Source: an uncultured Halieaceae bacterium
Lineage (GTDB): Bacteria; Pseudomonadota; Gammaproteobacteria; Pseudomonadales; Halieaceae
Length of the DNA stretch: 39,823 nucleotides
NCBI GenBank assembly: GCA_913056165.1
Contig: CAJXMD010000019.1
Coordinates: 1-39,823 of the forward strand
Reading direction: 5' to 3'
Shown: one piece after another, positions 3,141 to 24,181 of the stretch
Layout: every line of letters starts with the position of its first letter
Numbering within the stretch: the stretch's first letter is position 1
Translations under genes and position numbers: made by a program
The notes under the pieces: model-generated
What the model was told of the DNA's origin: nothing
The model's input: only the letters and a program-made list of their open reading frames with translations
Database searches by the model: none

Positions 3141-3211
3141 GGTGGTGTACACCCACCATACTCACCTCTTCTCCAGTCAATCACTCGGAAACGGTTCCTG
3201 AAGAGCACGTA

Positions 3212-5182
3212 ATGCAGTCCACTGAACTACTCTTTGAACGAGCCAGAGACGCGCTGCGCAATCAGGATGCAGCTACCGCCTGTGAACTATGTGAGCAGGC
3301 GAGGCAGATCAATGCCGAGGACACACGGTTTACGTTATTACACGGCTTTGCCTTGCGGCGACTCGGCGAGCATGGCGCGGCAGAGCCCCTCCTACGGGCC
3401 GTGCTGCGCGAGAATCCCTCGATTGATCTGGTGCACCATGAGCTGGGACAGGCGCTTGTCGGCTTGGGGCGCCTTGGTGAGGCACGGCTATCTCTGGAAC
3501 AGGCGGTGCAGTTGAATCCAGAGCTTGTGGCCGCGTGGCGGGACCTGTACGAGGTTCGCGCTGCCGAAGGCGACGACCTAGGTGCCGCAGAAGCCTATCG
3601 ACAGAGTATGAGGAAAAAAGAGCTTGACCCGCTCCTGAAAAAAGCGATTGAGCTTATTGGTCAGGGTCGCCTAGGTGTGGCGGAGGCTATTTGCCGTGAG
3701 TACCTGAAGCGGCGTCCTCATGATGTAGATGCGATCAGACTGCTGGCAGAAATTGGCATCGGACTGGATTTGGTTGGGGAAGCTATTCTGCTTTTGGAAC
3801 GCTGTCTTGAGCTTGCCCCCGACTTTCATGTCGCTAGATCCAACTACGTCACGGCGTTATCTCGCTATCAGAAATTTGATGATGCCCTTCGGGAGAATGA
3901 ACGTCTTCGGCACAAGCAACCTGATAACCTCTCTCATCAGGTTCAGTTCGCTTCTACCTTGTCGATGGCCGGCCGCTTCGAGCAGGCACACGGTGCCTTT
4001 GAAAGGGCTCTGGAACTGGCACCCGCCAGCGAGCGTATTCTCACAAGCTACGGGCATTCCCTCCGCTATGGAGGCAAAGGCAGCGAGGCAATCGACATTT
4101 ATTTACGTGCTATTGAGGCTGATCCAGCAGCGGGCGAAGCCTATTGGAGTCTTGCCAATCTAAAGACATTTCGCTTTGACGACGCTCGTCTCGCTTCGAT
4201 GGTGGATCAATACAACGGGCTTGAGAATCCGAGCGAAAATAAATTTCATCTGGCATTTGCGATTGGCAAGGCTTTTGAAGATCGTGAAGACTTTGATCGT
4301 TCTTTCAAGGCTTACGCAGAGGGAAATGCTATCAAGAGACAATTCAGCAGCTACGATGCTGACAAGACGTGTGCGCGGGTGGATAGGTTGATTGAGCATT
4401 GCGACTCAACGCTATTGGAGATAAATGGCCACCCCTCGAATGAGCCTATTTTTATCGTAGGTCTTCCTCGTGCTGGTTCCACATTGCTCGAACAAATTTT
4501 GGTTAGCCACTCGAAGGTTGAGGCGACCGCGGAACTTCCTTTTATCGGGAGAATCGCAAATGAAATTGGCGGCGGAAAAGCTCGAGAAGAAAAGCTGTCG
4601 TACCCCGAGGCGTTGACAACACTCGCGCCGGATGACCGCGTGAAATACGGCCAGCAATACTTGGATCTTTGCGATGGCTACCGAACCGGGAAACCTCATT
4701 TTATCGATAAGCTACCCAATAATTGGCAGCATGTTGCGCTGATTAAAACCATCTTACCCAACGCGACCATTATCGACGCCAGACGCCACCCCATGGCAGC
4801 CTGCTTCGCAAACTTTAAGCAGCTATTCGCTCGGGGTCAGGAATTTACCTACTCCCAAGAGGACATTGGTCGTTATTATGCGGATTACCTTCGGCTGATG
4901 AATCATTGGCATAAGGTCTTCGCTGGTGGACTGCTTACGGTGCAGTACGAATCGGTAGTAGCGGACCTGGAGTCTCAGGTGCGGCTATTGCTTGAGCACT
5001 GCAAGCTGGACTTCGAGGACGCGTGCGTGACGTACTACGAGAAGGACCGCGCAGTGCGCACCGCCAGTTCGGAGCAAGTGCGACAGCCGATCTACCGGGA
5101 TGCGCTCGTCCTTTGGGAGAACTATCGCGAATTCTTATCGCCTTTGGAGTCGACATTAGCTCAACAGGGCGTCGAGTGGTGA
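3212..5182 (+). CDS. TPR-repeat sulfotransferase
   Basis: A 656-residue two-domain protein. Residues 1-345 are tandem helical TPR units with typical A-x3-F/Y-x-A-L-x-L-P spacing, for example FERALELAP near 263-271. Residues 410-640 form a Sulfotransfer_3-like domain. The PAPS 5'-phosphosulfate loop reads GLPRAGSTLLEQIL at about 417-430, and a later RRHPMAACFANFKQ carries the usual 3'-phosphate-binding arginine region. The family would transfer sulfate from PAPS to an acceptor chosen by the TPR part. There is no signal peptide, so it is cytoplasmic. The ATG at 3212 was preferred over upstream in-frame codons because these lie inside the preceding terminator. TPR-sulfotransferases often sit beside TonB-dependent receptors in marine gammaproteobacteria, but the acceptor is unknown. 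Confidence 0.88.
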   Translation: MQSTELLFERARDALRNQDAATACELCEQARQINAEDTRFTLLHGFALRRLGEHGAAEPLLRAVLRENPSIDLVHHELGQALVGLGRLGEARLSLEQAVQLNPELVAAWRDLYEVRAAEGDDLGAAEAYRQSMRKKELDPLLKKAIELIGQGRLGVAEAICREYLKRRPHDVDAIRLLAEIGIGLDLVGEAILLLERCLELAPDFHVARSNYVTALSRYQKFDDALRENERLRHKQPDNLSHQVQFASTLSMAGRFEQAHGAFERALELAPASERILTSYGHSLRYGGKGSEAIDIYLRAIEADPAAGEAYWSLANLKTFRFDDARLASMVDQYNGLENPSENKFHLAFAIGKAFEDREDFDRSFKAYAEGNAIKRQFSSYDADKTCARVDRLIEHCDSTLLEINGHPSNEPIFIVGLPRAGSTLLEQILVSHSKVEATAELPFIGRIANEIGGGKAREEKLSYPEALTTLAPDDRVKYGQQYLDLCDGYRTGKPHFIDKLPNNWQHVALIKTILPNATIIDARRHPMAACFANFKQLFARGQEFTYSQEDIGRYYADYLRLMNHWHKVFAGGLLTVQYESVVADLESQVRLLLEHCKLDFEDACVTYYEKDRAVRTASSEQVRQPIYRDALVLWENYREFLSPLESTLAQQGVEW

Positions 5183-7885: not shown

Positions 7886-8605
7886 ATGACCATTCGAATT
7901 GCCATGTGGTCCGGGCCGCGCAATATATCCACCGCGATGATGCGTGCCTGGGAAAACCGGCCTGACTGCTCGGTAGTCGATGAGCCCTTTTATGCCTGTT
8001 ACCTCTCTGAGAGCGGTGCCGACCATCCCTGTCGTGAGGCGGTGCTGGCGAGTCAATCTAACCAGCGGGAGGAGGTGGTAGAGGAACTTAAAAGCCCGGC
8101 GTTAGTGCCGCTGCAATACGAAAAACACATGACCCATCACATGCCGGTGGGATGTGATCTTGATTGGGTGAACCAATGTCGGAACGCCTTTCTTATCCGA
8201 TCACCTGCCGCTGTTATCGCCTCTTACCTGCAGAAAATGAATAGCGTCACCGAGGAGGATATCGGGATTACCAGGCAGCGGTCTCTGTTCGAGGAAATCA
8301 CGGCGATTATAGGGAGGCGCCCGCTAGTAGTCGATGCTGCTGATGTTCTCCGTGAGCCAGCCAACATGATGCGCAAACTTTGTGAGGCGCTCGATGTGCC
8401 TGTGGATGTTGCCTCGATGACGGCGTGGCCAAAAGGACGTAGAGACAGCGACGGGGTGTGGGCGAGTCATTGGTACCAGGCCGTTGAGGCCTCGACCGGA
8501 TTTTCCGCGCCGAGAGACAACCTGGTGCTGCCAGACGAGCAGGCCGCGCTACTGGCGGAGGCAATGCAGGAGCATTACGAGGCGCTGTACTACTACCGGT
8601 TGTGA
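7886..8605 (+). CDS. sulfotransferase-like P-loop protein paired with the aminotransferase
   Basis: A 239-residue protein starting MTIRIAMWSGPRNISTAMMR, a P-loop-like sulfotransferase entry motif (SGPRNxST in place of the usual PRSGST). VVDEPFYACYL follows at about 34-44, and NAFLIRSPAAVIASY near 108-122 resembles the 3'-phosphate-binding strand and helix. This small branch is usually annotated as sulfotransferase family, but sulfotransferase activity is not shown for it as far as I know. It follows the class IV aminotransferase after nine bases. From memory, the same two domains are fused in plant proteins called branched-chain-aminotransferase-like, with the sulfotransferase-like part first. 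That supports a shared pathway, although the reaction is unknown. Confidence 0.8.
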   Translation: MTIRIAMWSGPRNISTAMMRAWENRPDCSVVDEPFYACYLSESGADHPCREAVLASQSNQREEVVEELKSPALVPLQYEKHMTHHMPVGCDLDWVNQCRNAFLIRSPAAVIASYLQKMNSVTEEDIGITRQRSLFEEITAIIGRRPLVVDAADVLREPANMMRKLCEALDVPVDVASMTAWPKGRRDSDGVWASHWYQAVEASTGFSAPRDNLVLPDEQAALLAEAMQEHYEALYYYRL

Positions 8606-9976: not shown

Positions 9977-10675
9977 TTACTCTGCTGCGTAATGCTGGAC
10001 ACAGCTTTCAAAGGTATCCAATTCCAGGGAATCGATCGTTGAAAGCATTTTGGCGTAGGGCTCCATCGCCCACGGCGCTCGTTGGAGAAAGTCGTTCACC
10101 ATCATGCCTGCAACCTCGGGGGTGACGGCGAAGATGCGCACATCGAGCATGTTGGCTTTCTGATGCCCGTTGCCCATCGGCTGAAAGATACCAACCTCAA
10201 CCTTGTGCCCGTTTTCCTGCATGACTTTTTCAAGGGCAGTTGCCGCAGCAATGTAGCCTGCTACGTCATTCACAACGATCTGATAGCGCCGCTCAAAGCC
10301 AGATGGCAGGGTGAAGGGCTTCAAAATAGCGTAGAACTCTGTAGAGATAACGCTACTGATGTCATTTAACTCTCCGCTTCTGGGGCGTTCTGAAAACATC
10401 TGAGCGCCTTTAAAAGCAGCACTCGCGTTTTCAAAAATACTCCAGGCAAAGGCTTGGCCTGGGTAGCGATGCCCGCTCAGCGTAACGCAGGTTCCTCCAG
10501 CTTGAGCCCCCAGAGTGGAGAAGACAGATGGATTCTTGCTTACGACGTCAACATAGGCGTTTGGGTTGTCTGCCTGTACATTGACGACAGTGACAACAGG
10601 CGTGTCGTTGGCCGCGGTGAATGATGTGGCGAGACCAAGTAACACACCTGCCAGATAGGATATACGTTTGACCAT
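9977..10675 (-). CDS. exported protein of unknown function
   Basis: A 232-residue protein with a clear signal peptide (MVKRISYLAGVLLGLATSF, cleavage near TAANDT), predicted periplasmic or secreted. No catalytic motif is recognised. The mature part appears to hold two similar alpha/beta halves (TVVNVQADNPNAYVDVV near 29-45 and VEVGIFQPMGNGHQK further on), which could be a ferredoxin-like or dimeric alpha-beta barrel fold, but this is only an impression. Two Cys remain (in GGTCVTLSG and ESCVQHYA) and might form a disulfide. AAGGAACA lies seven bases before the ATG at 10675. The 21-bp direct-repeat element at 10799-10828 lies 124 bp upstream and is shared with two other genes for exported proteins here. 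Confidence 0.75.
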   Translation of the reverse strand: MVKRISYLAGVLLGLATSFTAANDTPVVTVVNVQADNPNAYVDVVSKNPSVFSTLGAQAGGTCVTLSGHRYPGQAFAWSIFENASAAFKGAQMFSERPRSGELNDISSVISTEFYAILKPFTLPSGFERRYQIVVNDVAGYIAAATALEKVMQENGHKVEVGIFQPMGNGHQKANMLDVRIFAVTPEVAGMMVNDFLQRAPWAMEPYAKMLSTIDSLELDTFESCVQHYAAE

Positions 10676-11396: not shown

Positions 11397-12452
11397 CTAC
11401 ACGCTGTCAGCCAGAGCCTGTTCTTCTTCGTCCATTTCAGCCGGGATCGTCTCGAAAAGTGGCGTCGATAGATAGCGCTCACCCGTATCCGGGAGCATCA
11501 CCAGCATGACCGATCCCTTGGGTGCTTGCTCGGCGACTTCGATAGCAGTGGCAAGGGTAGATCCGCCGGAGACACCTGTGAGAATGCCCTCTTCGGCAGC
11601 CAGTCGAGCCGCCCATTGCATGCCAATAGTTCCATCGACGGGTAACACCTGATCGAAACCCTTGTTGTCGATGCTTTCCTGCAGAACCTTGGGTATAAAA
11701 TCTGGCGTCCAACCCTGAATGACATGGGGTTCCCAGGCTGGGTGACTGCCCGCCGGTGAATCATCCGCGTTTCGCTGCTGAGGTTCTCCTGAGCCCACGA
11801 GTCTCGCATTGTGCGGCTCGGACAAAATGATCTTGCAGTTGGGTAAGTCCTTGCGGAGGACCCGCGCCACCCCGGATACGGTACCCCCCGTGCCATACCC
11901 GGTTACCCAATAGTCGAGACCGATATCTTTGAAGTCGTTGACGATCTCCCGCCCCGTCGTACTTTCATGAATGTCTGCGTTTGCCGATGATTCAAATTGC
12001 CGCGCAAAAAACCAGCCATTTTTCTCAGCCAGCGCCTGCGCCTTACGGTACATGCCAATGCCTTTTTCAGCGCGGGGTGTCAGCACGACTTTGGCCCCGA
12101 GAAATCGCATCAGGCGCCGCCGTTCAATGGAGAAGCTATCGGCCATGGTGATGACAAGGGGATAGCCCTTGGCTGCACAGACCATCGCTAGGCCAATGCC
12201 GGTGTTGCCTGATGTTGCTTCCACGACAGTTTGCCCGGGTGACAGGAGGCCCTCTCGCTCTGCAGCTTCAATCATATTGAGTGCGAGGCGATCTTTTACC
12301 GAGCTCAGGGGATTGAAAGATTCGACTTTGACGTAGAGGCTGACATGATCGGGAGCGATGTGATTTAAGCGAACGCAGGGGGTGTCGCCCACCGTCTCCG
12401 TTACAGAGTCATAGAGTTTGCCCCTGCCCGATGTTGTGTACAGATTCCCCAC
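11397..12452 (-). CDS. cysK: cysteine synthase family PLP enzyme (CysK-like)
   Basis: A 351-residue fold-type II PLP enzyme. The lysine is at about 53 in NPLSSVKDRLA, the phosphate-contacting TSGNTG follows, and SFSIERRRLMRFLGAKVVL and TGERYLSTPLF are closer to O-acetylserine sulfhydrylase A than to CysM. The reaction would be O-acetylserine plus sulfide to cysteine. It is longer than E. coli CysK: between SEPHN and HVIQGWTPDFIP there is an extra polar loop (GSGEPQQRNADDSPAGSHP), and an acidic tail (PAEMDEEEQALADSV) follows. A related beta-replacement enzyme cannot be excluded. A GTG at 12452 sits eight bases after AGAGG and was preferred to the GTG at 12461, which overlaps that site. Confidence 0.82.
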   Translation of the reverse strand: MGNLYTTSGRGKLYDSVTETVGDTPCVRLNHIAPDHVSLYVKVESFNPLSSVKDRLALNMIEAAEREGLLSPGQTVVEATSGNTGIGLAMVCAAKGYPLVITMADSFSIERRRLMRFLGAKVVLTPRAEKGIGMYRKAQALAEKNGWFFARQFESSANADIHESTTGREIVNDFKDIGLDYWVTGYGTGGTVSGVARVLRKDLPNCKIILSEPHNARLVGSGEPQQRNADDSPAGSHPAWEPHVIQGWTPDFIPKVLQESIDNKGFDQVLPVDGTIGMQWAARLAAEEGILTGVSGGSTLATAIEVAEQAPKGSVMLVMLPDTGERYLSTPLFETIPAEMDEEEQALADSV

Positions 12453-12534
12453 GACACTCACCTCTGGTTTTGTGATGTTGGGTAGAACACTACGCCACTT
12501 TGGGAGCCTGTGTCACTTCCGTTGTGATGGTCGC

Positions 12535-12984
12535 TCAGCGCTCTTTATCCCCAGCGAGAGCTTGATGCTTGAGTCGAATAAATTCCTGGTGGGGAACATA
12601 AAGTAAATCGGCGACCCGACGTATCAGATGATCTTCGTACTTGCTTAGATCCCCATCCGCGGCGGCAACTTGCCACATGAGCCCGATGAGCTCGCTTCTC
12701 TCCTCGGGCGAACAGTGCTCGTTGATGACGCGGGTAAAGTCATGGAGCGAGACGGCATTTTCTACCTGATCATTGGCTTGTTGGGTTACCAGCTCCACGT
12801 CCTCCGGGCTCATATCAAAGGTTGCGGCGAGCAGGCTGATAAGGCGCGCTAACTCCTCTGGGGTGATCTCAAAGTCCGCCCTGGCGACCTCGACAAGCAG
12901 GGCTGCTGAAGCGAGCTCCCGCGTACTGCTCTGTTTTTGCTCGATTTTTTCGCTAAAAAGTGTCTCGAAAAGGGATTTAAGCAT
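12535..12984 (-). CDS. TerB-like (tellurite resistance TerB / DjlA-type domain) protein
   Basis: A 149-residue acidic, all-helical protein. Two similar halves show the TerB pattern: LLVEVARADFEITPEELARL at about 29-48 and MWQVAAADGDLSKYEDHLIR near 103-122, each with the acidic loop that could bind a metal. TerB-like proteins are small cytosolic or membrane-associated proteins, often of unclear role; this solitary copy has no ter operon genes around it, so tellurite resistance should not be assumed. It is divergent from the glucosylglycerate operon, with about 90 bp between starts. Confidence 0.8.
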   Translation of the reverse strand: MLKSLFETLFSEKIEQKQSSTRELASAALLVEVARADFEITPEELARLISLLAATFDMSPEDVELVTQQANDQVENAVSLHDFTRVINEHCSPEERSELIGLMWQVAAADGDLSKYEDHLIRRVADLLYVPHQEFIRLKHQALAGDKER

Positions 12985-13074
12985 CGGAAATTGGGTTCAA
13001 ATGAGGTGGTTGTGTCTTAATGGGCACGATTATTGCTGACCTATACTCGGGGGGCTCTGGCATATCGGCCCAGT

Positions 13075-14058
13075 ATGAGGTCAGGAGCTAAAGGATACGG
13101 GTTGTTGCGACAGCTGCAAAGTTGCACGCCCAGGCGAGAGAGTACGGTTTTGGTGGAAGCAGTCAGGGAACTGATCGAGAAGTTTGCCCGGGAGAGAGAT
13201 GTTTCCGGAGAATTCGTTCAGACGGCGAACGACTGGTATCTCGAAGCGCTGGCACTCATTACCGCGCGGCACAGAGAGGCGGGACGGCCAATTTTAGTCG
13301 GGATCTCGGGTTGCCAGGGGTCTGGCAAGTCGACCTTGGCCGAGTTGCTATTCGCTCTTCTGGAGGAACACAGCGGCTATAAAGTTGCCTTGCTTGCACT
13401 TGATGATTTTTATCTGGGACGCGAGGACAGGGCGGACCGGGCCCGGAAGTTACACAGGCTTTTCGCCACTCGTGGCGTACCGGGGACTCACGATACTGCT
13501 TGGATGAGCCGTTCTATTAACGATCTGCTGACAGGCACCGGCGACGTTGTCACCCCCGTATTTGACAAGTCGAGGGACGATCGCACTGGAAGTGAGCGTT
13601 GGCACCATTATGGTGCGCCGGTTGATGTGGTCCTTCTGGAAGGTTGGTGTCTGGGAATTCCCGCCCAGTCAGAGGCAGACCTGAGGTCTCCCTGCAATGA
13701 GCTGGAGGCCAGTCAGGATCCTGGTGGCGAGTGGCGCGGCCATGTGAACCGATTTTTGGCGGCAGACTACCAGCCTTTGTTCGACCGACTCGACTTATTG
13801 CTGCTGCTTCAGGCGCCTAATTTCGACGCCGTGGCTCAGTGGCGATTCGAGCAGGAACAGCACCTGGCAAGACAACAAACTAAACGAGGTGAAACCACAG
13901 GGAGGGCGCTCATGGATGAGCAACAGATAAAGGATTTTGTACAGTACTTTGAGCGACTAACGCTGCACGGGTTTGAGGAGCTGCCTAAGCGTGCGAATTT
14001 GGCCTGGCAGCTGGGCGCCGATCGCACGGTGAGCGGTCGGCTGGGGAGAGCGTCGTGA
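13075..14058 (+). CDS. D-glycerate kinase, P-loop (plant GLYK-like) type
   Basis: About 327 residues. A Walker A motif GISGCQGSGKST lies near 76-87, followed by VALLALDDFYL (a lid and substrate-binding strand as in phosphoribulokinase/uridine kinase-like enzymes), RGVPGTHDT and VVLLEGWCLGI. This arrangement is that of the P-loop D-glycerate 3-kinases (plant and cyanobacterial type): D-glycerate plus ATP to 3-phosphoglycerate. The start is uncertain: ATG 13075 has no strong ribosome site, a TTG at 13102 follows AAAGGA, and an upstream TTG exists at 13033. A TATACT at 13042-13047 could be a -10 box. The gene overlaps the phosphatase by a GTGA, so the four genes 13075-17883 form one coupled unit. 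It would return the glycerate released by the phosphorylase to glycolysis. Confidence 0.85.
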   Translation: MRSGAKGYGLLRQLQSCTPRRESTVLVEAVRELIEKFARERDVSGEFVQTANDWYLEALALITARHREAGRPILVGISGCQGSGKSTLAELLFALLEEHSGYKVALLALDDFYLGREDRADRARKLHRLFATRGVPGTHDTAWMSRSINDLLTGTGDVVTPVFDKSRDDRTGSERWHHYGAPVDVVLLEGWCLGIPAQSEADLRSPCNELEASQDPGGEWRGHVNRFLAADYQPLFDRLDLLLLLQAPNFDAVAQWRFEQEQHLARQQTKRGETTGRALMDEQQIKDFVQYFERLTLHGFEELPKRANLAWQLGADRTVSGRLGRAS

Positions 14059-14891
14059 AGCGTCCCGTTATTTACACCGACCTCGATGGCTCCCTTCTCG
14101 ATCACTATACCTATGAGGCAACGCCAGCCAAGCCTTTGCTTAGACAGTTGGATCAGCTTGGCACCCCGGTCATTCCCTGCACCAGCAAAACCGTCGCGGA
14201 AGTGATTCCCCTCTGCCGCTCACTCAACCTCTCGGGACCCTTCATTGCGGAAAATGGGGCGCTTATCTGCGTACCGACGAGCTGGCCAATACCGATTCCA
14301 AAAAATAGCGGGCGAACAGGGGCCTATTGGTCTCATTGCATGGGCTACCCCAGATCCGCGCTGCGGGCCGTGCTGGATTCACTGCCGAAACTATGGGCGG
14401 ATCGATATCAGCCTCTGGTGGATCTCTCGGTTGATGATGTGATGGCACTGACCCAGCTGGACGCACGCGCTGCGGCGCGAGCCTTGCGCAGGGACTTTAC
14501 TGAGACGCTGGTGTGGCATGGGAGTGATACGGACTTTGATACCTTCTCGACGTTGATGACTGACCGGGGATTGCAATGCGTTCGTGGTGGCCGATTCGTT
14601 CATTTGATGGGGCCAAACAACAAGGCGCGGGCGATGGAGTGGCTGCAGCTGGCTATTGGGCACTACCTAGGGGGAGAGGTGGTCAGCATCGGTATCGGGG
14701 ATGCCGACAATGACCGATCCCTGCTCGAAGCAACAGACATCGCACTTCTCGTCAGGTCGCCAGTTCACGATTTCCCCGTTCTCGATCGGACCGACAATAC
14801 CTTTCACAGCCGCTCCTATGGCCCAGAGGGCTGGGTCCAGGGGGTGGAGACAATATTGACAACCCTGTTGGGTAAGGAGGCATTGGCGTGA
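14055..14891 (+). CDS. gpgP: HAD phosphatase, mannosyl/glucosyl-3-phosphoglycerate phosphatase
   Basis: A 278-residue HAD protein of the Cof/MPGP type. Motif I is YTDLDGSLLD with D9 and D11, motif II is IPCTSKTVAEV, and motif IV is GDADND near 215-220. FIAENGALI and FVHLMGPNNKARAM are typical of mannosyl-3-phosphoglycerate phosphatases. It should dephosphorylate the product of the next gene (glucosyl-3-phosphoglycerate) to glucosylglycerate; enzymes of this family often accept both the mannosyl and the glucosyl ester. It overlaps the kinase at its start and the synthase at its end by GTGA on each side, indicating translational coupling. The gpg naming rests on the neighbouring GpgS-type synthase. 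Confidence 0.87.
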   Translation: MKRPVIYTDLDGSLLDHYTYEATPAKPLLRQLDQLGTPVIPCTSKTVAEVIPLCRSLNLSGPFIAENGALICVPTSWPIPIPKNSGRTGAYWSHCMGYPRSALRAVLDSLPKLWADRYQPLVDLSVDDVMALTQLDARAAARALRRDFTETLVWHGSDTDFDTFSTLMTDRGLQCVRGGRFVHLMGPNNKARAMEWLQLAIGHYLGGEVVSIGIGDADNDRSLLEATDIALLVRSPVHDFPVLDRTDNTFHSRSYGPEGWVQGVETILTTLLGKEALA

Positions 14892-16141
14892 GTGATTTTT
14901 TTCAAAATGGGACCATCACCACCCTGCATGATCTGGGCGATCGATCGACAGAGAGTTATGAGGATGCGCTGGTCACTTTCTCCCAAAAAAGACCGATAGG
15001 TCTTATTCTGCCCTCTCTCTATTCAGAGCTGGGTACGGAGGCCTTACCAAATATCGTGAAAGAACTGACCCGGGTGCCCTATCTGAGTCAGGTAGTGATA
15101 GGTCTGGATCGGGCAGATCAGAGCGAGTATCAGCACGCGATCGATTTCTTCGGCCAGCTGCCGCAACATCATCGAGTGTTGTGGAATGATGGCCCGCGCC
15201 TTAGGGCCATTGATCAGCGGCTACAAGAGGCAGGGCTCGCACCCCGAGAGCTGGGCAAAGGGCGAAATGTTTGGTACTGCATGGGCTATGCGTTAGCGAC
15301 AGCGAAGGCGGATGCCATCGCACTGCATGATTGCGACATTCTTACTTACGACCGCAGTTTACTGGCACGTCTGGTTTACCCGGTGGCCAACCCCCTCTTT
15401 AACTACGAGTTTTGTAAGGGTTATTACCCGCGAGTGGCTGATAACAAAATCAATGGTCGCGTCTGCCGACTGCTGGTCACACCGATGATTCGGGCCATGA
15501 AGCGAGTTGTTGGTGACTCTCAATACCTCGCCTATCTGGACAGCTACCGCTACATTCTCGCCGGTGAATTCGCTTTTCGCCGGGAGTTGTTAAATGACCT
15601 GCGCATCCCCTCCGACTGGGGGCTGGAAATTGGCGTGGTTTCCGAGGTATATCGAAGTAACAACAACAGACAAATTTGTCAGGTCGATATCGCGCATAAC
15701 TACGATCACAAGCACCAGAATCTGTCGCTCGATGATGCGACCCTCGGCCTGTCTCGCATGTCCATGGATATCGCGAAGTCGATTTTTCGAAAGCTCGCCA
15801 TACAAGGCACGGTGTTTAATCAGGAGACGTTCCGGACTATAAAGGCGACCTACTATCGGATGGCGCTGGATCTCGTCGAGGCTCATCGCGATAACGCAAT
15901 CATGAACGGGCTCGGTTACGACATCCACCAGGAAGAAGTCGCGGTTGAGCTCTTCGCTGAAAATATCATGGAGGCGGGCAAGCAATTCCTCGAGCGACCG
16001 ATGGACGCGCCATTCATTCCTACCTGGAATCGTGTGGTGAGTGCGATCCCCGAGATTCTGGATGACCTCCGCGAGGCGGTGGAAGAGGACTACCTCGAGT
16101 TTGGTGTTGATGCGGGGGGCTCTCGAGTACGCGCATGTTAG
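14888..16141 (+). CDS. gpgS: glucosyl-3-phosphoglycerate synthase (GT81-like)
   Basis: A 417-residue GT-A retaining glycosyltransferase. After a strand GLILPSLYSELG near 38-49 come VVIGLDRADQ, the conserved GKGRNVWYCMGYAL near 123-136, and the metal-binding DxD as D148-C149-D150 in ALHDCDILTYDRSLL. LAGEFAFRRELL and WGLEIGVVSEVY match the acceptor side of GpgS enzymes. It would transfer glucose from an NDP-glucose to 3-phosphoglycerate. The motif set fits GpgS better than mannosyl-3-phosphoglycerate synthase, though sugar specificity is inferred. The start GTG overlaps the phosphatase stop (14888-14891), and the end overlaps the phosphorylase start by seven bases. Confidence 0.88.
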   Translation: MSDFFQNGTITTLHDLGDRSTESYEDALVTFSQKRPIGLILPSLYSELGTEALPNIVKELTRVPYLSQVVIGLDRADQSEYQHAIDFFGQLPQHHRVLWNDGPRLRAIDQRLQEAGLAPRELGKGRNVWYCMGYALATAKADAIALHDCDILTYDRSLLARLVYPVANPLFNYEFCKGYYPRVADNKINGRVCRLLVTPMIRAMKRVVGDSQYLAYLDSYRYILAGEFAFRRELLNDLRIPSDWGLEIGVVSEVYRSNNNRQICQVDIAHNYDHKHQNLSLDDATLGLSRMSMDIAKSIFRKLAIQGTVFNQETFRTIKATYYRMALDLVEAHRDNAIMNGLGYDIHQEEVAVELFAENIMEAGKQFLERPMDAPFIPTWNRVVSAIPEILDDLREAVEEDYLEFGVDAGGSRVRAC

Positions 16142-17883
16142 TGGAGGCTCTGGTTGATCGCCTCAAGGCACAGCTAAACACAATATATGGCGGGGTAATT
16201 GGGGAGCAGGAGCAGCTGGATTGGCTGCAGCGGTTTTTGGTCACCATGGGTCTTTCCCAAGACCAGATGCCTCCCGAGGCACACCGAAATATCTGGAGCG
16301 AGAAGGACATTGCCTTAATCACCTATGGTGATTCAATCTTGTCTGAGGGTGCGGCACCTCTTCAAGTTCTCGAGAGTTTTCTGTCAGGGTATCTGAAGAG
16401 CGTAATAAGCTGGGTTCATATCCTTCCATTTCACCCCTGGACCTCCGACGACGGTTTTGCGGTGATGGATTATTCCAGCGTCAATGAGGCCCTTGGAGAT
16501 TGGTGTGACATTACGTCCCTGAGTCAAAGTTATAAGGTGATGGCTGATGTGGTACTCAACCACTGCTCAAGCCGATCCGCGTGGTTTGAGAATTTTCGCC
16601 AGGGGCTCCACCCCGGTGCCGATTATTTTTATGTGCCCGAGCAGGACTTCGATACATCGAAGGTGGTAAGACCGCGGACCAGTCCTTTGTTGGTACCCGT
16701 AGAGACCAGTAGTGGCGAGCGATCAGTCTGGTGCACCTTTAGCGCGGATCAGGTTGATTTTGATTTTAGAAACCCAGCGGTTTTAAATGAATTTCTGGGC
16801 ATCATTCGCCAGCAGCTGGATGCAGGCGTGCGCGTCTTTCGATTGGATGCGGTCGCTTTTGTCTGGAAGGCCTCGGGAACAACCTGCGTCAACCAGCCCC
16901 AAACCCACGCCATTGTTCGATTGCTGCGCACTATGATTGAGTGTGCCGCGCCCGAGGCGGTATTGATCACCGAGACAAATCTTCCCAACAGGGAAAACTT
17001 GTCCTATTTTGGAAACGCCAATCAGGCTCATGCGGTTTACAACTTCTCGCTGCCGCCGCTACTGCTGGACTGCCTATTGTCGGGAAACAGTCGGTACTTG
17101 AGCCAGTGGATGATGAGCATGCCACCCGCTCAGGACGGCACCACGTATTTCAATTTCATCGCGTCTCATGACGGTATTGGTTTGCGCCCCGCGGAGGGCC
17201 TGTTGTCTGAGGCTGAAATTGAGCGCCTCATCGACACGATGACCTCATTTGGCGGCTTGGTTTCCTATCGAGAAACTGATGGTGATAGAAAGCCCTACGA
17301 AATTAACATAGCGCTTCGAGATGCACTGACGGGAACTTACGAGGGGGTTGATGATCTCGGTATTCAGCGGTTTATGTGTGCCCATGCGGTGATGTTGGGG
17401 CTTGAGGGAATACCGGCTTTTTACATTCACTCACTTATCGGTACGCGCAATGATCATGAGCGCGTCAATCATACCGGCAGGAATCGCTCTATTAACCGGC
17501 ATCAATGGGGCCTGGATCAGCTAGAGCAGGCCCTCGAGGATGAAGACTCCGAACACGCCACGGTACTGCGAAAGCTATCCTCTCTCATTGCCCTGCGGCA
17601 GCGCCAGCCGGCATTTCACCCAAATGCCACACAGTTCACGCTGCGATTGGCTACTGAACTGTTCGGGTTCTGGCGTCAGAGTCAGGATCGCCGGCAGAGT
17701 ATTTTTTGCGTTTACAACGTATCCAGTGCGCCACAAATGTTACCGCTTGCGGAGCTTAATCTGATTCTCACCGATGAGTGGTATGACCTTATCTCCGGGA
17801 CTCGATTGTCAGATGCGTCAGCGGAGATGACACTTTCTCCTTATCAGGTGCTCTGGATAAGCAATCAATACCTGGGCTTTTGA
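16135..17883 (+). CDS. GH13_18 glycoside phosphorylase, probably glucosylglycerate phosphorylase
   Basis: A 582-residue GH13 enzyme of the sucrose-phosphorylase subfamily. The four GH13 regions are visible: DVVLNH (138-143), GVRVFRLDAV with nucleophile D238, ITETN with acid/base E280, and SHDGIG with D346. The N-terminal IALITYGDSI and HILPFHPWTSDDGFAVMDY are family marks. Three activities are close in sequence: sucrose, sucrose-6'-phosphate and glucosylglycerate phosphorylase. The coupled genes for glucosyl-3-phosphoglycerate synthesis and glycerate kinase argue strongly for glucosylglycerate plus phosphate giving alpha-glucose-1-phosphate plus D-glycerate. No sucrose gene is nearby. It is cytoplasmic, with no signal peptide, and is the last gene of the operon. 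The 126-bp gap after it shows no clear terminator. Confidence 0.87.
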   Translation: MLVEALVDRLKAQLNTIYGGVIGEQEQLDWLQRFLVTMGLSQDQMPPEAHRNIWSEKDIALITYGDSILSEGAAPLQVLESFLSGYLKSVISWVHILPFHPWTSDDGFAVMDYSSVNEALGDWCDITSLSQSYKVMADVVLNHCSSRSAWFENFRQGLHPGADYFYVPEQDFDTSKVVRPRTSPLLVPVETSSGERSVWCTFSADQVDFDFRNPAVLNEFLGIIRQQLDAGVRVFRLDAVAFVWKASGTTCVNQPQTHAIVRLLRTMIECAAPEAVLITETNLPNRENLSYFGNANQAHAVYNFSLPPLLLDCLLSGNSRYLSQWMMSMPPAQDGTTYFNFIASHDGIGLRPAEGLLSEAEIERLIDTMTSFGGLVSYRETDGDRKPYEINIALRDALTGTYEGVDDLGIQRFMCAHAVMLGLEGIPAFYIHSLIGTRNDHERVNHTGRNRSINRHQWGLDQLEQALEDEDSEHATVLRKLSSLIALRQRQPAFHPNATQFTLRLATELFGFWRQSQDRRQSIFCVYNVSSAPQMLPLAELNLILTDEWYDLISGTRLSDASAEMTLSPYQVLWISNQYLGF

Positions 17884-18009
17884 TACTCTCCCTGCCGACC
17901 CACAGTTGAGCAACCCATAAATATAAAAAACGTAACGAACGTGAGCTAAATAGCCCTACTAACCCAAGGAATCCCTTTTATTTCTTGGCAATGGGGTGTA
18001 GGTTTGTCA

Positions 18010-19845
18010 GTGGGGGATACAACAAGAAGAATTACCGTGAAACCAACCGACACGTCGCACCCTGAGTATTTCCACAAGGTTGTGGATTGCCAGTACGCCT
18101 GCCCGGCACACACGCCGGTGCCCGAATACATCCGTCTTATCGCAGCAGAGCAATACACCGACGCCTACATGGTGAACTGGGAGTCTAATGTTTTCCCTGG
18201 AATTCTAGGTCGCACCTGCGATCGCCCATGCGAGCCTGCCTGTCGCCGTGGACGCGTCGATGAGGAGCCGGTCGCGATCTGTCGACTGAAACGAGTCGCT
18301 GCGGATAATAAATCTGACGTCAGTGGTTTATTGCCGGTACCTCCCAAGGCCAAGAATGGCAAGCGCATCGCTCTGATTGGCGGTGGTCCGGCATCTTTGA
18401 CGGTGGCGCGAGATCTCGCGCCCCTTGGGTATCAAATTGATCTTTACGACGATCAGGCGCTGGCAGGCGGTTTCATGCGCAGCCAGATCCCCGCCTTTCG
18501 GCTCCCGCCGGAGGTGCTCAATGAAGAGGTCAACTTCATTCTCGACATGGGTATCAGTCAGCACTTTGAAACCTATGTGGACAGTCTGCAGGCAATCGTA
18601 AGTAAGGGATATCACGCGATCTTTATTGGTACCGGTGCCCCCCGAGGAAGCAATCTGGATATACCGGGCCGCGAGGAGTGTGATGCTTCTATTCACGTGG
18701 GTATCGATTGGCTTGCATCGGTAGCTTTTGATCACGTATCCAAGATTGGTAAGCGTGTCCTGGTATTGGGCGGTGGTAATACCGCAATGGACTGCTGCAG
18801 AACCGCCAGACGATTGGGTGGGGAAGATGTGCGGGTGGTTGTTCGTTCCGAGTTTGCCCGCATGAAGGCGTCTCCCTGGGAGATCGAAGACGCGGTCGCC
18901 GAGGACATTCCGATTATTAATAATCATGTGCCCAAGGAGTTTGTTCATGAGGATGGCCGGCTTAAGGGTATGGTTTTTACTGTGGTTGACGTCGTCTACG
19001 ACGATGAGGGAAAGCGCAGTCTGGTGCCCACCGGTGAGGAAGTGTTCTTCGAGGCCGACGAAGTCATCATCGCGATTGGCCAAGATAACGCCTTTCCCTG
19101 GATTGAGCGGAATTTGGGTATCGAATTTGGTAAGTGGGACATGCCCGTGGTTGATAAAACCACCTTCCAGAGCACTCTGCCCCATGTATTTTTTGGTGGT
19201 GACGCTGCATTTGGGCCCGAGAACATTATTACGGCGGTTGCTCATGGGCATCAGGCGGCGGTATCGATAGATCTTTATCTGCGTGGCGAAAATATCAACA
19301 AGCGACCGCCTCCCGGGGTCAATCTTGTCAGCCAGAAAATGGGGATGCACGAATGGAGTTATGACAGCGAGGTCTCGCCAGATGATCGCTTTGCCGTTCC
19401 TCATGTGAGCAAAGACAAGGCGTTGCGGGATAGAAAGCTTGAGGTTGAACTGGGGTTCAGTAAAGAGGTGGCTTACTTTGAGGCCGAGCGCTGTTTAAAT
19501 TGCGATGTTCAGACGGTTTTCACCACCTCGAAGTGCATCGAGTGCGATGGTTGTGTGGATATCTGTCCCACAGACTGCATCAACTTTATCGACAATGCCG
19601 ATGAGCCAGAGCTTCGATCCGCCTTGAGGCGGCCTGCCACCAATGCCGAGCAAGACCTGTATGTGTCCGAGGCCTTGGACCAAACAAAACGGGTCATGGT
19701 GAAAGACGAAAATGTGTGTTTGCACTGCGGGCTGTGCGCTGAACGCTGCCCAACAGGTGCCTGGGACATGCAACGATTTTTATACAGCGTTACCAAGGCT
19801 GGGACATCATGCAAGCAAAGCAGTCCATTAACGACTTCGTCATAA
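18010..19845 (+). CDS. GltD-like NAD(P)/FAD oxidoreductase with C-terminal 4Fe-4S domains
   Basis: About 611 residues. An N-terminal Fe-S domain of the GltD/dihydropyrimidine dehydrogenase type (VDCQYACPAHTPVPEYIRLI and CDRPCEPACRRG) is followed by an FAD site RIALIGGGPASLTVARDL, an NAD(P) site VLVLGGGNTAMDCCRTARRL and the late FAD motif HVFFGGDAAFGPENIITAV. After CLNCDVQ the C-terminus adds two ferredoxin-like motifs, CIECDGCVDICPTDC and CLHCGLCAERCP. It most likely carries electrons between the oxidoreductase encoded by the next two genes and NAD(P)H or ferredoxin. The start could be TTG 18004, GTG 18010 or GTG 18037; GTG 18010 has an AGG at workable spacing. Its last 37 bases overlap the next gene. 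Confidence 0.85.
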   Translation: MGDTTRRITVKPTDTSHPEYFHKVVDCQYACPAHTPVPEYIRLIAAEQYTDAYMVNWESNVFPGILGRTCDRPCEPACRRGRVDEEPVAICRLKRVAADNKSDVSGLLPVPPKAKNGKRIALIGGGPASLTVARDLAPLGYQIDLYDDQALAGGFMRSQIPAFRLPPEVLNEEVNFILDMGISQHFETYVDSLQAIVSKGYHAIFIGTGAPRGSNLDIPGREECDASIHVGIDWLASVAFDHVSKIGKRVLVLGGGNTAMDCCRTARRLGGEDVRVVVRSEFARMKASPWEIEDAVAEDIPIINNHVPKEFVHEDGRLKGMVFTVVDVVYDDEGKRSLVPTGEEVFFEADEVIIAIGQDNAFPWIERNLGIEFGKWDMPVVDKTTFQSTLPHVFFGGDAAFGPENIITAVAHGHQAAVSIDLYLRGENINKRPPPGVNLVSQKMGMHEWSYDSEVSPDDRFAVPHVSKDKALRDRKLEVELGFSKEVAYFEAERCLNCDVQTVFTTSKCIECDGCVDICPTDCINFIDNADEPELRSALRRPATNAEQDLYVSEALDQTKRVMVKDENVCLHCGLCAERCPTGAWDMQRFLYSVTKAGTSCKQSSPLTTSS

Positions 19846-21689
19846 AGTTTGCCAATGTGAATGGCACAGGTTCCGCCAGTGCCAATGGCATGTTCGCCAA
19901 AGCAATTTTTCGGATGGGTATCCCCGTAAGCCCCCGCAACATATTCCCCTCTAACATTCAGGGGATGCCCACCTGGTATGAAGTACGTGTGAGTCAGGAT
20001 GGCTATCTGGGCCGTCGTGGAGGCACCGACATCATGGTCTGTGTCAATCCACAGAGTATGAAGCGCGATGTCGCCGAGGTTGATCCTGGCGGTTATTTTA
20101 TTTACGACTCTACCAAGCCCCTCGATCTGAGGCTGGTGCGACAAGACATTCATTACATTGGTATCCCGCTGACAGAAATTTGTCTTCGGGAGTACACCGA
20201 CGCAAGGCAGCGCCTGCTTTTCAAGAACGTCATCTATGTGGGCGCTTTGTCGGCCCTACTGAACATCGATTTTGGGGTGCTCAAAGATCTTGTTGCTGAT
20301 CAGTTCAAAGGCAAGGAAAAGCTCATCACCCCCAATATATATGCCCTTGAATTGGGCCACCAATATGCCAGCAAGCATTTTGACTGCCCGATTGGTATTC
20401 GCCTTGAGCGCGGTCATAAAGTAGCGAAGCACATCGAGGATTTTGACAATATCCTCATGGATGGTAATACCGCCGCCGCACTCGGTGCGGTGTATGCGGG
20501 CGCCACGGTAGCCGCCTGGTATCCGATCACTCCTTCCACGTCGGTCGTGGATGCTTTTGACAAGTACTGCCGACGCCTTCGGATAGATCCGGGCACTGGC
20601 AAGAAAAACTACGCCATCATTCAGGCAGAGGATGAGCTGTCAGCCTTGGGCATGGTTATCGGCGCTAACTGGAATGGGGCGCGGGCATTCACCGCGACCA
20701 GCGGTCCGGGCATGTCTTTGATGAGTGAGTTTTTGGGTCTGGCGTATTTTGCTGAAATTCCAACGGTCCTGATCGACGTTCAGCGGGCGGGTCCTTCGAC
20801 CGGCATGCCAACACGGACCCAGCAGTCCGATGTTCTCATGGCGGCCTATGCCTCCCATGGTGATACGAAACATGTATTACTTTTTCCGGCCACGCCTGCT
20901 GAGTGTTTCAGCATGACCGTCGAGGCGTTTGATTTAGCGGAGCGCCTGCAGACACCGATTATTATCATGAGTGATCTGGATCTCGGCATGAATGAGTGGA
21001 TGTCGCCGCCGCTTGAGTTTGACGACGACTATCGTTACGACCGCGGCAAGGTGTTAAGCGCCAGCGATCTAGACGCCATGGAAGAGCGCTTTGGTCGCTA
21101 CAAGGATGTTGATGGTGACGGCATTCCCTACCGCACCTATCCTGGTGTTCATCCCGATAAAGGGGCTTATTTTACGAGAGGCTCCTCTCGTGATGAGTAT
21201 GCCGCCTACACAGAGGACGGTTCCGAGTACGTTCGCAATATGGATCGCTTACTTCAAAAATTTGAGTCGGCAAAAGAAATTGTTCCAGAGCCAAAAATAA
21301 AGCAGTCAGAGCTAGAGACCCGTTACGGTGCGGTCTTTTTTGGTACGACCGCTTCTCCAGCCTATGAGGCCATAGAAATTCTGGAGAAAGAGGGCATCGA
21401 GTTGGATACGATGCGTGTCCGTGCCTTCCCTTTCAATGCCGATGTTGAGCAGTTTTTGCGGGAGCACGATCGAATCTTTGTGGTAGAGCAAAATCGAGAT
21501 GGGCAAATGCGCAGGTTACTGCTCAATGAGACCAGCGTCCCGGCTAATGAGAAGCTCATTCCCATTCTTGAATATGATGGTCTGCCAGTCACTGCGAGGA
21601 AGATTGCCGGGATGATTAGAAACTATATCACTCATGGTAACGTCACACCGTTGGTGCGCCGTATACTAAAAGAGGAGGCCACCGCGTGA
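19809..21689 (+). CDS. korA: 2-oxoacid:ferredoxin oxidoreductase, fused gamma-alpha subunit (KorA-like)
   Basis: A 626-residue fusion. Residues about 1-190 are the gamma domain (VIKFANVNGTGSASANGMFA, then GMPTWYEVRVS and GGTDIMVCVNP). From about 205 it is the alpha subunit with the pyrophosphate-facing AAWYPITPSTSVVDAF, then AIIQAEDELSALGMVIGANW, FTATSGPGMSLMSEFLGLA and QRAGPSTGMPTRTQQSD. The enzyme cleaves a 2-oxoacid (2-oxoglutarate, pyruvate or a branched-chain acid) with CoA and reduces ferredoxin. The gamma-alpha fusion with a separate beta is usual for KOR-type enzymes; 2-oxoglutarate is likely but not proven. It overlaps the beta gene by GTGA at 21686-21689, giving tight coupling. Confidence 0.88.
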   Translation: MQAKQSINDFVIKFANVNGTGSASANGMFAKAIFRMGIPVSPRNIFPSNIQGMPTWYEVRVSQDGYLGRRGGTDIMVCVNPQSMKRDVAEVDPGGYFIYDSTKPLDLRLVRQDIHYIGIPLTEICLREYTDARQRLLFKNVIYVGALSALLNIDFGVLKDLVADQFKGKEKLITPNIYALELGHQYASKHFDCPIGIRLERGHKVAKHIEDFDNILMDGNTAAALGAVYAGATVAAWYPITPSTSVVDAFDKYCRRLRIDPGTGKKNYAIIQAEDELSALGMVIGANWNGARAFTATSGPGMSLMSEFLGLAYFAEIPTVLIDVQRAGPSTGMPTRTQQSDVLMAAYASHGDTKHVLLFPATPAECFSMTVEAFDLAERLQTPIIIMSDLDLGMNEWMSPPLEFDDDYRYDRGKVLSASDLDAMEERFGRYKDVDGDGIPYRTYPGVHPDKGAYFTRGSSRDEYAAYTEDGSEYVRNMDRLLQKFESAKEIVPEPKIKQSELETRYGAVFFGTTASPAYEAIEILEKEGIELDTMRVRAFPFNADVEQFLREHDRIFVVEQNRDGQMRRLLLNETSVPANEKLIPILEYDGLPVTARKIAGMIRNYITHGNVTPLVRRILKEEATA

Positions 21690-22735
21690 CTTATGTCAAA
21701 CCCGCATTTCGGCACCCAGATGCACCGGTCAATGAGTTAGGTAGAACGAGAGCGGAATATGAGGGGGGCCTCTCTACCCTGTGTGCTGGTTGTGGTCATG
21801 ACTCCATCAGCGCAGCCATAATTGACGCTTGTTTTGAGCTGAATATCGAGCCTCACAAGGTCGCCAAACTTTCAGGAATTGGCTGCTCGTCCAAGACTCC
21901 TGCCTATTTTCTTTCCGGTTCCCACAGCTTTAACAGCGTGCATGGTCGAATGCCCTCGGTAGCAACCGGGGCAAATTTGGCCAACCGAGAGCTCACGTAC
22001 ATTGGTATTTCCGGTGACGGTGATACTGCGTCGATTGGTCTGGGTCAGTTCGCCCACGTGGTCCGACGCAACCTCAACATGACCTACATCGTCGAGAATA
22101 ATGGATGTTACGGCCTGACCAAAGGTCAGGACTCCGCGACCATGGACACCGGAGCTAAAAATAAAAAGGGCGATATAAATCTCTATTCTCCGATCGATCT
22201 TGCGCGGTTGGCGATTGAAATAGGCGCTACCTTTGTCGGCCGGAGTTTCTCCGGAGACAAGCAGCAGCTGGTGCCATTGATCAAGGCGGCGATTAGCCAC
22301 CGTGGCTTTGCTCTTCTGGATGTGATTTCTCCCTGTGTCACCTTCAACAATCACGGGGAATCGACAAAGAGTTATGAACACGTCCGCAAGGTGAATGACG
22401 CTATGCCGGTGGATTTCGTGCCCATGAAAGAAGAGATCACGGCCACCTACGATTCCGGCACCACCTTCGAGGTGTGTATGCACGATGGCTCGGTGGTTCG
22501 GTTATACAAGCAGGACAATGATTACGACATTGAAGATCGTCATGCGGCGCTGGAGGCGACCAGCCACTACACCCAGGAAGGAAAAATTCTAACCGGATTA
22601 CTTTATATCCAGCGAGATAGTGAGGAGTTACACGATCAGCTGGGTACTACCCGACGGGCCTTGAATTCGATGGATGAAAACGAGCTGTGTCCCGGGTCGC
22701 GCTTTCTCGATTCTATCAATGCAGGTCTTCGCTAG
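21686..22735 (+). CDS. korB: 2-oxoacid:ferredoxin oxidoreductase, beta subunit (KorB-like)
   Basis: A 349-residue thiamine-diphosphate-binding subunit. Cysteines C33 and C36 (TLCAGCGHDS) and C67 (GIGCSSK) are the conserved 4Fe-4S ligands of this subunit, with a fourth probably in ISPCVTFNNHG. The ThDP/Mg site is GISGDGDTASIG at about 107-118 followed by ENNGCYGLTKGQ near 137-148. No separate ferredoxin-domain delta subunit is encoded; the two C-terminal ferredoxin motifs of the first gene in the cluster may replace it. AGAGGAGG lies about seven bases before the GTG start. It converges with the transporter gene, with 21 bases between the stops. Confidence 0.9.
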   Translation: MTYVKPAFRHPDAPVNELGRTRAEYEGGLSTLCAGCGHDSISAAIIDACFELNIEPHKVAKLSGIGCSSKTPAYFLSGSHSFNSVHGRMPSVATGANLANRELTYIGISGDGDTASIGLGQFAHVVRRNLNMTYIVENNGCYGLTKGQDSATMDTGAKNKKGDINLYSPIDLARLAIEIGATFVGRSFSGDKQQLVPLIKAAISHRGFALLDVISPCVTFNNHGESTKSYEHVRKVNDAMPVDFVPMKEEITATYDSGTTFEVCMHDGSVVRLYKQDNDYDIEDRHAALEATSHYTQEGKILTGLLYIQRDSEELHDQLGTTRRALNSMDENELCPGSRFLDSINAGLR

Positions 22736-22756: not shown

Positions 22757-24181
22757 TTAGCGCCGGCCTAGCCGCAACAGATTGGACTCGTGCTCGCTCT
22801 TGTTCAATCGGTAATAGGCCAGAGCCCACAGCATCAGGCCCCATAGTAACCATTGCATGGGTACCAACACGGCGCCTAGGTTCCACATGATGGCGGTATC
22901 GACCTCAGCCGGGCTCGTCCCCTCGGGAAACTGAACGGCAGCCAGCACAATACCCGCTATAAAGACACCGATCCCCTGATTTGTTTTTCTTACAAAGGTT
23001 AATGTCGAAAAAAAGATTCCTTCGCTTCTCCTTCCGGTGGAGAGCTCCGATTGCTCGACTAAATCGGCGATCATCGAGGCGGAGATAATTTGCATCGCAA
23101 TAATCAGTCCTAAATCAACCGTATTAATGGTTGCGACCAGCGGGAACAGCAGGGGCGCGCCATTCTCGGGGAGCACATTCAGCAATCGTAACAACACCGG
23201 AAGCGGCTGAATTGAAAAAGCCAGCACCCCGAGAACCATAACGGCTTTCTTTTTTCCGAGTTTTCTGGCCGCTTTGGGCGCGATCACAAACCCCAAGAGC
23301 GCTGAAATCACTACCAATCCGGTCCAATAAAAGATCTGCATGGAGCTGAAATCCCAGAAGTAGGTCAGCATCAGGAAGGTCAGTGCGGCGGTGAGTCCAG
23401 AGGCGACCGATCCGGCGATCGTTGAAAGAAACAATGCAAAGAAGTTTGGATTGACTAGGGTTTCTTTAATGTCTGTGAAGGCTCGTGTGATGGAGGCCTT
23501 TTGTCTGGAAGTCTCCTCACCGAAGTAGCGTATGTGGCGCTGGGTGCCCAGGGAGGAGATCATGATGGCAAAAAACATGATCCACGCGGAGAGCCAGCCA
23601 TAGGTGCTGTACCCCTCCCGATTTAAGGTGCCGACAGGTTGGCTCTCGGTAGGTACCAACAAAAAGCCAAAGGCAATGACGGCGAGCAGCGAGCCACCGG
23701 TCCATCCGAAAAAGTGACGAAAGGATTGCAGAGAGGTCCTCTCGTCATAGTCTGACGTCAACTCGGGTAGCAATGAGGAGCTGGGTGTTTCAAAAAACGT
23801 AATCAGCGTTCTGATCAGCACCGCCATGATCAGTAAATAGAAAAAAAGGCCCTCATTACTGAGTTGTGGTGGGTTCCATAAGAGCGCATAGCAAGCGGCC
23901 ACGGGAACTGCGGATGCATACATGAATGGGTGTCTTCGCCCCCATCGCGATCGGGTATTGTCTGACAGATAGCCGACGATCGGGTCGCTGAGGGCATCTA
24001 GTATCATGGCGATGAGGAGTGCTGTGCCAACCAATTCCGCATCGAGACCGACGACAGTGCTATAGAACATCAGTAAGAAATAGGCAAAGCCGTTGTCTTT
24101 AATGCCGTAGGCGACAGACCCGATGCCATGGAAGATCTTTACATGAATGCCCAGACTCACAGGACGAGATGTGGGGTGCAT
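22757..24181 (-). CDS. MFS_2 / GPH-type (MelB-like) symporter
   Basis: A 474-residue inner-membrane protein with about 12 hydrophobic segments. The early loop reads ALSDPIVGYLSDNTRSRWGRRHPFM at about 63-87 (the D-P-x2-G-x3-D...RWGRR pattern), the signature of glycoside-pentoside-hexuronide:cation symporters such as MelB. The substrate is unknown: many GPH members move sugars or glucuronides, but others are unassigned. It lies 25 bases downstream of the homocysteine S-methyltransferase gene on the same strand, so they probably form a two-gene operon and the transported compound may be related to the methyl donor. The start codon has no convincing ribosome site. Confidence 0.87.
   Translation of the reverse strand: MHPTSRPVSLGIHVKIFHGIGSVAYGIKDNGFAYFLLMFYSTVVGLDAELVGTALLIAMILDALSDPIVGYLSDNTRSRWGRRHPFMYASAVPVAACYALLWNPPQLSNEGLFFYLLIMAVLIRTLITFFETPSSSLLPELTSDYDERTSLQSFRHFFGWTGGSLLAVIAFGFLLVPTESQPVGTLNREGYSTYGWLSAWIMFFAIMISSLGTQRHIRYFGEETSRQKASITRAFTDIKETLVNPNFFALFLSTIAGSVASGLTAALTFLMLTYFWDFSSMQIFYWTGLVVISALLGFVIAPKAARKLGKKKAVMVLGVLAFSIQPLPVLLRLLNVLPENGAPLLFPLVATINTVDLGLIIAMQIISASMIADLVEQSELSTGRRSEGIFFSTLTFVRKTNQGIGVFIAGIVLAAVQFPEGTSPAEVDTAIMWNLGAVLVPMQWLLWGLMLWALAYYRLNKSEHESNLLRLGRR

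Follow-up and report, generated by a model that had tools for sequence, protein, structure and literature searches.

What solute would be handled by a block of four overlapping genes that seems to hold the enzymes both to build and to dismantle it, and how would such a block be controlled? These questions are raised by a 39,823-nucleotide stretch of DNA from an uncultured Halieaceae bacterium (contig CAJXMD010000019.1, assembly GCA_913056165.1), here called the window. Its plus strand carries, one after the other, predicted genes for a D-glycerate 3-kinase (GLYK), a glucosyl-3-phosphoglycerate phosphatase (GpgP), a glucosyl-3-phosphoglycerate synthase (GpgS) and a glucosylglycerate phosphorylase (GGaP) (Table 1). 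An earlier note, made from the sequence alone, had proposed that they make and recycle glucosylglycerate (GGA). Motifs, fold, profiles and identity to E. coli YcjM support the four assignments together with GGA synthesis and phosphorolytic recycling, and it is very probable that the block encodes intracellular GGA metabolism. Gene order, family resemblance, active-site motifs and conservation are read from the sequence; from the families we infer the four reactions and the cycle. The block is an ordinary member of a type known in outline and common among marine bacteria: the earlier note read its enzymes correctly and over-read its regulation.

Four enzymes and the solute they would make

Which substrate would the phosphorylase split? 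Over 572 aligned positions it shares 39% identity (E 5e-140) with YcjM of E. coli, whose annotation is glucosylglycerate phosphorylase. A published rule of specificity assigns to GGaPs a (T/S)ETN motif at the tip of strand beta-5 and a Glu that replaces Gln in loop A (PMC7178133; the papers cited here by PMC number were available in part, and what is taken from them is limited to those parts). Both features are present in the window protein. They were compared in an alignment of 128 rows, of which 126 are of GGaP type (the window protein and YcjM included) and two are controls of the glucosylglycerol phosphorylase type with VGAIYQ in loop A. TETN (SETN once) and the loop A Glu (as PYE, AYE or IYE) occur in 126/126 GGaP-type rows and in 0/2 controls. 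Membership of the GGaPs thus holds by both motifs and by homology, with phosphorolysis of GGA as the predicted activity. The earlier note had suggested comparing the acceptor site with that of related enzymes; this comparison indicates glucosylglycerate and not sucrose. The catalytic residues that it had listed for the phosphorylase (D238, E280, D346), and the DCD motif of the synthase, are exact on re-reading.

The other three enzymes were placed by profiles, fold and motifs. When a profile of eight kinase relatives was compared with the PDB, the best matches were the D-glycerate 3-kinase 6ckg (8.2e-36) and the GLYK 7xpc (2.1e-32), followed by 1odf, an unnamed yeast protein (3.5e-28), and only then by pantothenate kinase (5e-10) and others that score worse. 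The Walker A motif is intact, and its G54, Q56, G57, G59, K60, S61 and T62 are invariant in 8/8 aligned kinases. With solved D-glycerate 3-kinases as its best matches, the protein is assigned to them as the closest family, and 3-phosphoglycerate is its predicted product. The phosphatase scores 211.3 bits against TIGR01486, above the subfamily cut-off of 164.75, and its PDB matches, 1xvi and 3ztw, are both named mannosyl-3-phosphoglycerate phosphatase (MPGP). For the synthase, whose family we take to be GT81, a structure was predicted with a mean pLDDT of 80.1, and a Foldseek search of the PDB with this model returned mycobacterial GpgS chains at ranks 1-11 (for M. hassiacum GpgS, E 4.3e-13, with a TM-score of 0.47 by query length and 0.62 by target length). 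The fold is joined by the DxD motif (here DCD) and a GKG motif, each invariant in 21/21 aligned relatives, and all 21 of these match both GpgS models of NCBIfam at E <= 0.001.

Several scores weigh against these assignments. The kinase reaches the cut-off of no NCBIfam kinase model, and in Pfam only MeaB scores above its cut-off, over the P-loop stretch. The phosphatase does not reach the equivalog models, with 266.6 bits against a curated equivalog cut-off of 362. GpgS has no Pfam match and stays below both NCBIfam cut-offs, with 359.6 bits of 700 for NF040724 (1.9e-107) and 67.8 of 262 for NF010496; judging by nothing but its name, we take NF040724 to be made for a methanogen-type subgroup. 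The mannosyl enzyme MpgS of Rubrobacter stands at rank 12 in the fold search and third in the profile search.

Could the solute then be a different one? Rubrobacter MpgS ranks close to GpgS in both searches, which makes mannose a possible donor sugar, and the best models for the phosphatase are named for mannosyl-3-phosphoglycerate. A synthase that uses GDP-mannose, with the pair making mannosylglycerate and the phosphorylase acting on something else, is nevertheless very unlikely: the synthase matches two models of NCBIfam, both for GpgS, and the adjoining phosphorylase bears the glucosylglycerate signature. The names of the nearest matches also raise sucrose as a substrate, since the NCBIfam model that the phosphorylase matches first is sucrose phosphorylase (TIGR03852) and its best PDB match carries the same name. 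Its 185.2 bits, however, fall short of the cut-off of 334.4, and loop A reads PYEIN where a sucrose phosphorylase is expected to have N(L/V)D(I/L/V)YQ. Sucrose-phosphate phosphorylase was ruled out by the motifs, and glucosylglycerol phosphorylase was rejected, as loop A is without VGAIYQ and the two controls differ from the window protein at both diagnostic sites. With both motifs of GGaP type, it is extremely improbable that the enzyme is a phosphorylase of sucrose, sucrose phosphate or glucosylglycerol.

How would the GGA pathway run? GpgS would join glucose from NDP-glucose to 3-phosphoglycerate, and dephosphorylation by GpgP would yield GGA, a compatible solute that is anionic and free of nitrogen. 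When the need for it has passed, GGaP would use phosphate to split it into glucose-1-phosphate and D-glycerate, and GLYK would return the glycerate to 3-phosphoglycerate. Ectoine synthase was not found in this genome (86.7% complete) and was found in 2/57 genomes of the genus, the only positives of a search in which 0/14 control genomes responded.

Table 1. The four-gene block in the window, with its motifs, overlaps and upstream spacer.
Feature	Position	Strand	Basis or remark
Intergenic, from a divergent TerB-domain gene to the kinase	12985..13149	.	a promoter could lie here
D-glycerate 3-kinase family (GLYK) gene	13150..14058	+	profile against PDB; start by homology
Kinase Walker A, GISGCQGSGKST	13300..13335	+	alignment
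Kinase/phosphatase overlap, 4 bases, GTGA	14055..14058	+	
Predicted glucosyl-3-phosphoglycerate phosphatase (GpgP/MPGP type, HAD-IIB)	14055..14891	+	TIGR01486; PDB
Phosphatase/synthase overlap, 4 bases, GTGA	14888..14891	+	AAGGAGG ribosome-binding-like site just before
Predicted glucosyl-3-phosphoglycerate synthase (GpgS, GT81 type)	14888..16141	+	NF040724; Foldseek
GpgS DCD motif, residues 148-150	15329..15337	+	invariant in 21/21 aligned
Synthase/phosphorylase overlap, 7 bases, ATGTTAG	16135..16141	+	1 base if the phosphorylase uses the possible alternative start GTG 16141
Predicted glucosylglycerate phosphorylase (GGaP, GH13_18 type)	16135..17883	+	YcjM identity; motifs
TETN motif with acid/base E280, residues 279-282	16969..16980	+	motif alignment
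Loop A motif PYEIN with GGaP-marking Glu, residues 387-391	17293..17307	+	motif alignment; rule of PMC7178133 (available in part)

The last three reading frames and the three overlaps are exactly as the earlier note gave them. Its kinase start, ATG 13075, can indeed be read, but homology favours a later one: counted along the stop-to-stop frame, ATG 13075 is residue 19, but the kinase-family profile sets in only at residue 51, which makes TTG 13150 or GTG 13153 more likely as start.

A common block around a constant core

How unusual is this arrangement? The view that such clusters are known in part only does not stand. GGaP genes have been described as often accompanied by glycerate kinase, GpgS or GpgP (PMC7178133); the phosphorylase signature and these companions recur in the window, which shows no qualitative difference from the neighbourhood described in the available part of that paper (for the enzyme, EC 2.4.1.352), its quartet being contiguous with overlapping ends. 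A 'glucosylglycerate metabolism operon' has been published for Prochlorococcus NATL2A (PMC11631117), where genes of synthesis and recycling also stand together. That operon includes a putative transporter gene, whereas no such gene directly adjoins the block here: a scan of 30 window genes places the nearest one, a GPH-type symporter, at 22757-24181, on the other strand and with other genes between. In Marinobacter, the same three enzymes GPGS, GPGP and GGAP were found together in 198/250 isolates, a count of homologues and not of gene order (PMC10873239); among our loci from this genus, the window's order of all four genes recurs in L070, L072, L075, L077, L085 and L088, and L062 has the last three. 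A GGaP has been proposed by the same motifs in a marine alphaproteobacterium (PMC10608839). E. coli differs: its homologous GGaP, YcjM, lies in ycjM-U with an ABC transporter, sugar dehydrogenases and a kojibiose phosphorylase, a catabolic setting, and relatives of GpgS, GpgP and GLYK were not found in the 17 kb around it.

Two samples of genomes were used to see which genes keep together. The first consists of 80 named loci, the best of 547 confirmed candidates, and is biased toward the window's type; the second covers 397 genomes of the phylum with completeness >= 90%, of which 59 match GpgS, or 58 once the window's genome is set aside. The earlier note had proposed a search for the same gene order elsewhere, and all four genes were found in that order in 54/80 named loci, with the kinase in front in 49 and fused to the phosphatase in 5. 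Phosphatase, synthase and phosphorylase stand in a row in 77/80, the other three (L038, L084, L112) being cut by a contig end. The same four genes recur in the same order in more than 20 named genera, and the block is therefore far beyond chance. The cultured relative Luminiphilus syltensis NOR5-1B (L045) also carries all four. What speaks against a fixed quartet is the kinase. GLYK is not beside the block in 26/80 named loci, at least four of which (L038, L084, L105, L112) hold too little upstream sequence for a verdict, and is likewise away from it in 38/58 phylum-wide loci (beside it in 19, fused in one); it is therefore a non-obligatory neighbour. GpgP lies at most 300 bases upstream of GpgS in 58/58 phylum-wide loci. 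GGaP follows GpgS directly in 26 (24 belonging to the window's class), precedes it on the same strand in 4 and lies on the opposite strand in 14; the stretches of the remaining 14 gave no GGaP. From these counts the GpgP-GpgS pair is the constant core, to which kinase and phosphorylase are joined mainly, not only, in the window's class.

Six loci (L113, L114, L122, L126, L150 and L151) have GGaP on the strand opposite to GpgP-GpgS, from less than 100 bases to some kilobases away.

Is the level of the solute then set after translation, as the earlier note had argued from a presumed single transcript? This claim is unsupported, because overlaps vary, GGaP can lie on the opposite strand, and the transcripts of the Prochlorococcus operon change in opposite directions. 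Junctions were counted in the window and 138 loci with starts chosen by rule, dropping pairs that overlap by at least 100 bases or lie at least 400 apart. Overlaps were found in 26/69 kinase/phosphatase, 28/133 phosphatase/synthase and 14/107 synthase/phosphorylase junctions, and translational coupling as a conserved trait was rejected. In dark-tolerant Prochlorococcus cells, transcripts for precursor synthesis are depleted and those for recycling are enriched (PMC11631117). A scan for sigma-70-like sites gave 3 in 12400-18200 against a shuffle mean of 3.5, with none in the intergenic spacer in front of the kinase and none on the plus strand inside the block. An RNA element was rejected, as Rfam gave no match at gathering score in the window.

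The kinase outside the cycle, fusions and deletions

Nor is the kinase dedicated to the cycle, since relatives without synthase and phosphorylase still have it; GLYK probably serves glycerate from other sources too. Should it then be seen mainly as the general glycerate kinase of the cell, a passenger in the block for which the cycle is a minor use? In the 57 genomes of the genus, GLYK is present in 17/17 that are at least 90% complete, and full-length GpgS in 14/17 of these, with none in G003 and G039 and a 44-residue remnant in G024. The kinase occurs without GpgS, GpgP or GGaP in the examined stretches of G003, G011, G038 and G039 (G011 is 83% and G038 82% complete). It is apart from synthase and phosphorylase in G006, G015 and G049, and elsewhere in G008 and G051 (taken as the same contigs as L033 and L034), in which GpgP, GpgS and GGaP are together. 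The MOFRL (PF05161) and Gly_kinase (PF02595) families of glycerate kinase were found in 0/57 genomes of the genus, in searches positive in 4 and 5 of 14 named controls. Against all this stands the place of the kinase in the named loci, where being first in the block in 49/80 and fused in 5 more argues for co-expression with the pathway, and a mere passenger seems somewhat unlikely. What if GGaP ran the other way, making GGA from glucose-1-phosphate and glycerate, so that the block held two routes to the solute? The reaction is reversible, and characterised GGaPs have a K_M for D-glycerate of 1-5 mM (PMC11009771). The adjoining kinase, however, would be expected to compete for glycerate, and GGaP is described, in the part of PMC7178133 available, as the only known possible sink of GGA in many producers. 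Two routes to GGA are thus unlikely.

The details that appear new are fusions of kinase and phosphatase, the lack in the genus of any second recognised family of glycerate kinase, and two deletions of synthase and phosphorylase. In L056, L078, L090, L104, L107 and L129, one open frame of 584 to 602 residues encodes both kinase and phosphatase, a distribution that requires at least four changes on a GpgS tree (136 rows, made by a quick method, with 38/131 inner branches weak). No mention of this fusion was found in one literature search aimed at it, which is weak evidence of absence. In G024 (L174, G024:C8, 5855-7875), GpgS is cut off after residue 44 and followed, in a different frame, by the C-terminal 46 residues of GGaP. 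In G050 (L175, G050:C88, 1848-3884), the N-terminal ~62 to 67 residues of GpgS continue, without a change of frame, into the end of GGaP, giving a frame of 95 residues. Both genomes keep open frames for kinase and phosphatase, and the end points of the deletions differ. Synthase and phosphorylase may thus have been lost by internal deletion, or the drafts may be wrongly assembled there. The nearest relative of the window, G002, has GpgS in seven pieces (L182, G002:C11, 7070-8321). This may be decay or sequencing error, the latter being possible because splits also affect other genes of that assembly, and the gap count is raised in GLYK as well, whose frame is open. A simple empty site was looked for in the genus and not found; by coordinates only, the spacing between OFO and CysK differs among relatives that have both on one contig.

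Neighbouring genes and a possible meaning

Does the block have a fixed regulator or transporter as partner? No such partner was found in the window and the 80 named loci: the commonest neighbour family occurs in 15/81 stretches, at varying positions. What was noticed, post hoc, is that genes of nitrate use lie within ~4 kb of the block in four clear and three possible cases out of 138 loci, in different genera; we estimate the expected rate at ~0.6% per locus for genomes with a single nitrate cluster each. In L036 and L051, an NMT1-like protein and an ANTAR regulator adjoin the block; from this pair of domains they are taken as NasS/NasT, although NCBIfam at 1e-20 gave no family for them. A nitrate ABC transporter stands beside the block in L052 (TIGR01184, 359.4 bits, cut-off 291.8), and L037 has a relative 76% identical to it. 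Molybdopterin oxidoreductases near the block in L101, L161 and L162 (those of L161 and L162 are 86% alike) may be nitrate reductases; for the protein of L101 the best score is that of formate dehydrogenase, followed by NasC, both below cut-off. Weaker nitrate-type matches were left uncounted (NirB-like in L100, L101 and L161; ABC in L106, L132, L169 and L170; CysG in L146; further ones in L044, L078, L111, L117, L127 and L136, and a partial one in L036). Of 41 genomes searched, 17 have a NasT-like gene, which is beside the block in the two loci already named. Among the 30 genes scanned in the window itself there is no nitrate gene.

Could the block be a portable substrate cycle? A turning pool of GGA would buffer carbon and charge against the supply of nitrogen, tied to central metabolism through the only recognised glycerate kinase, and would be lost by excision of synthase and phosphorylase while kinase and phosphatase are kept. 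The leads are the four nitrate neighbours among 138 loci (with three more possible), the two excision scars and the lack of fixed flanking genes. The idea is speculative and rather unlikely, and its odds are lowered because three of the seven nitrate neighbours rest on weak naming. According to the literature examined, GGA has been little studied in marine heterotrophs. Because the set to make and recycle it is common in their genomes, GGA may be a real pool of labile carbon in the ocean. The split, fused, relocated and excised versions of the block in relatives offer a comparative handle on recycling through glycerate kinase.

Some other genes of the window deserve a mention. The block is followed, at 18004-22735, by an NAD(P)-binding gene resembling the small subunit of glutamate synthase (under cut-off) and then by the alpha and beta subunits of a 2-oxoacid:acceptor oxidoreductase; the first of these genes has matches at E <= 1e-100 in 25/57 genomes of the genus. 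A 232-residue protein without Pfam match is encoded at 9977-10675, with an 85% identical copy in the same neighbourhood of G002. Two genes with sulfotransferase domains, one also with TPR repeats, lie at 3122-5182 and 7886-8605, near a TonB-dependent receptor.

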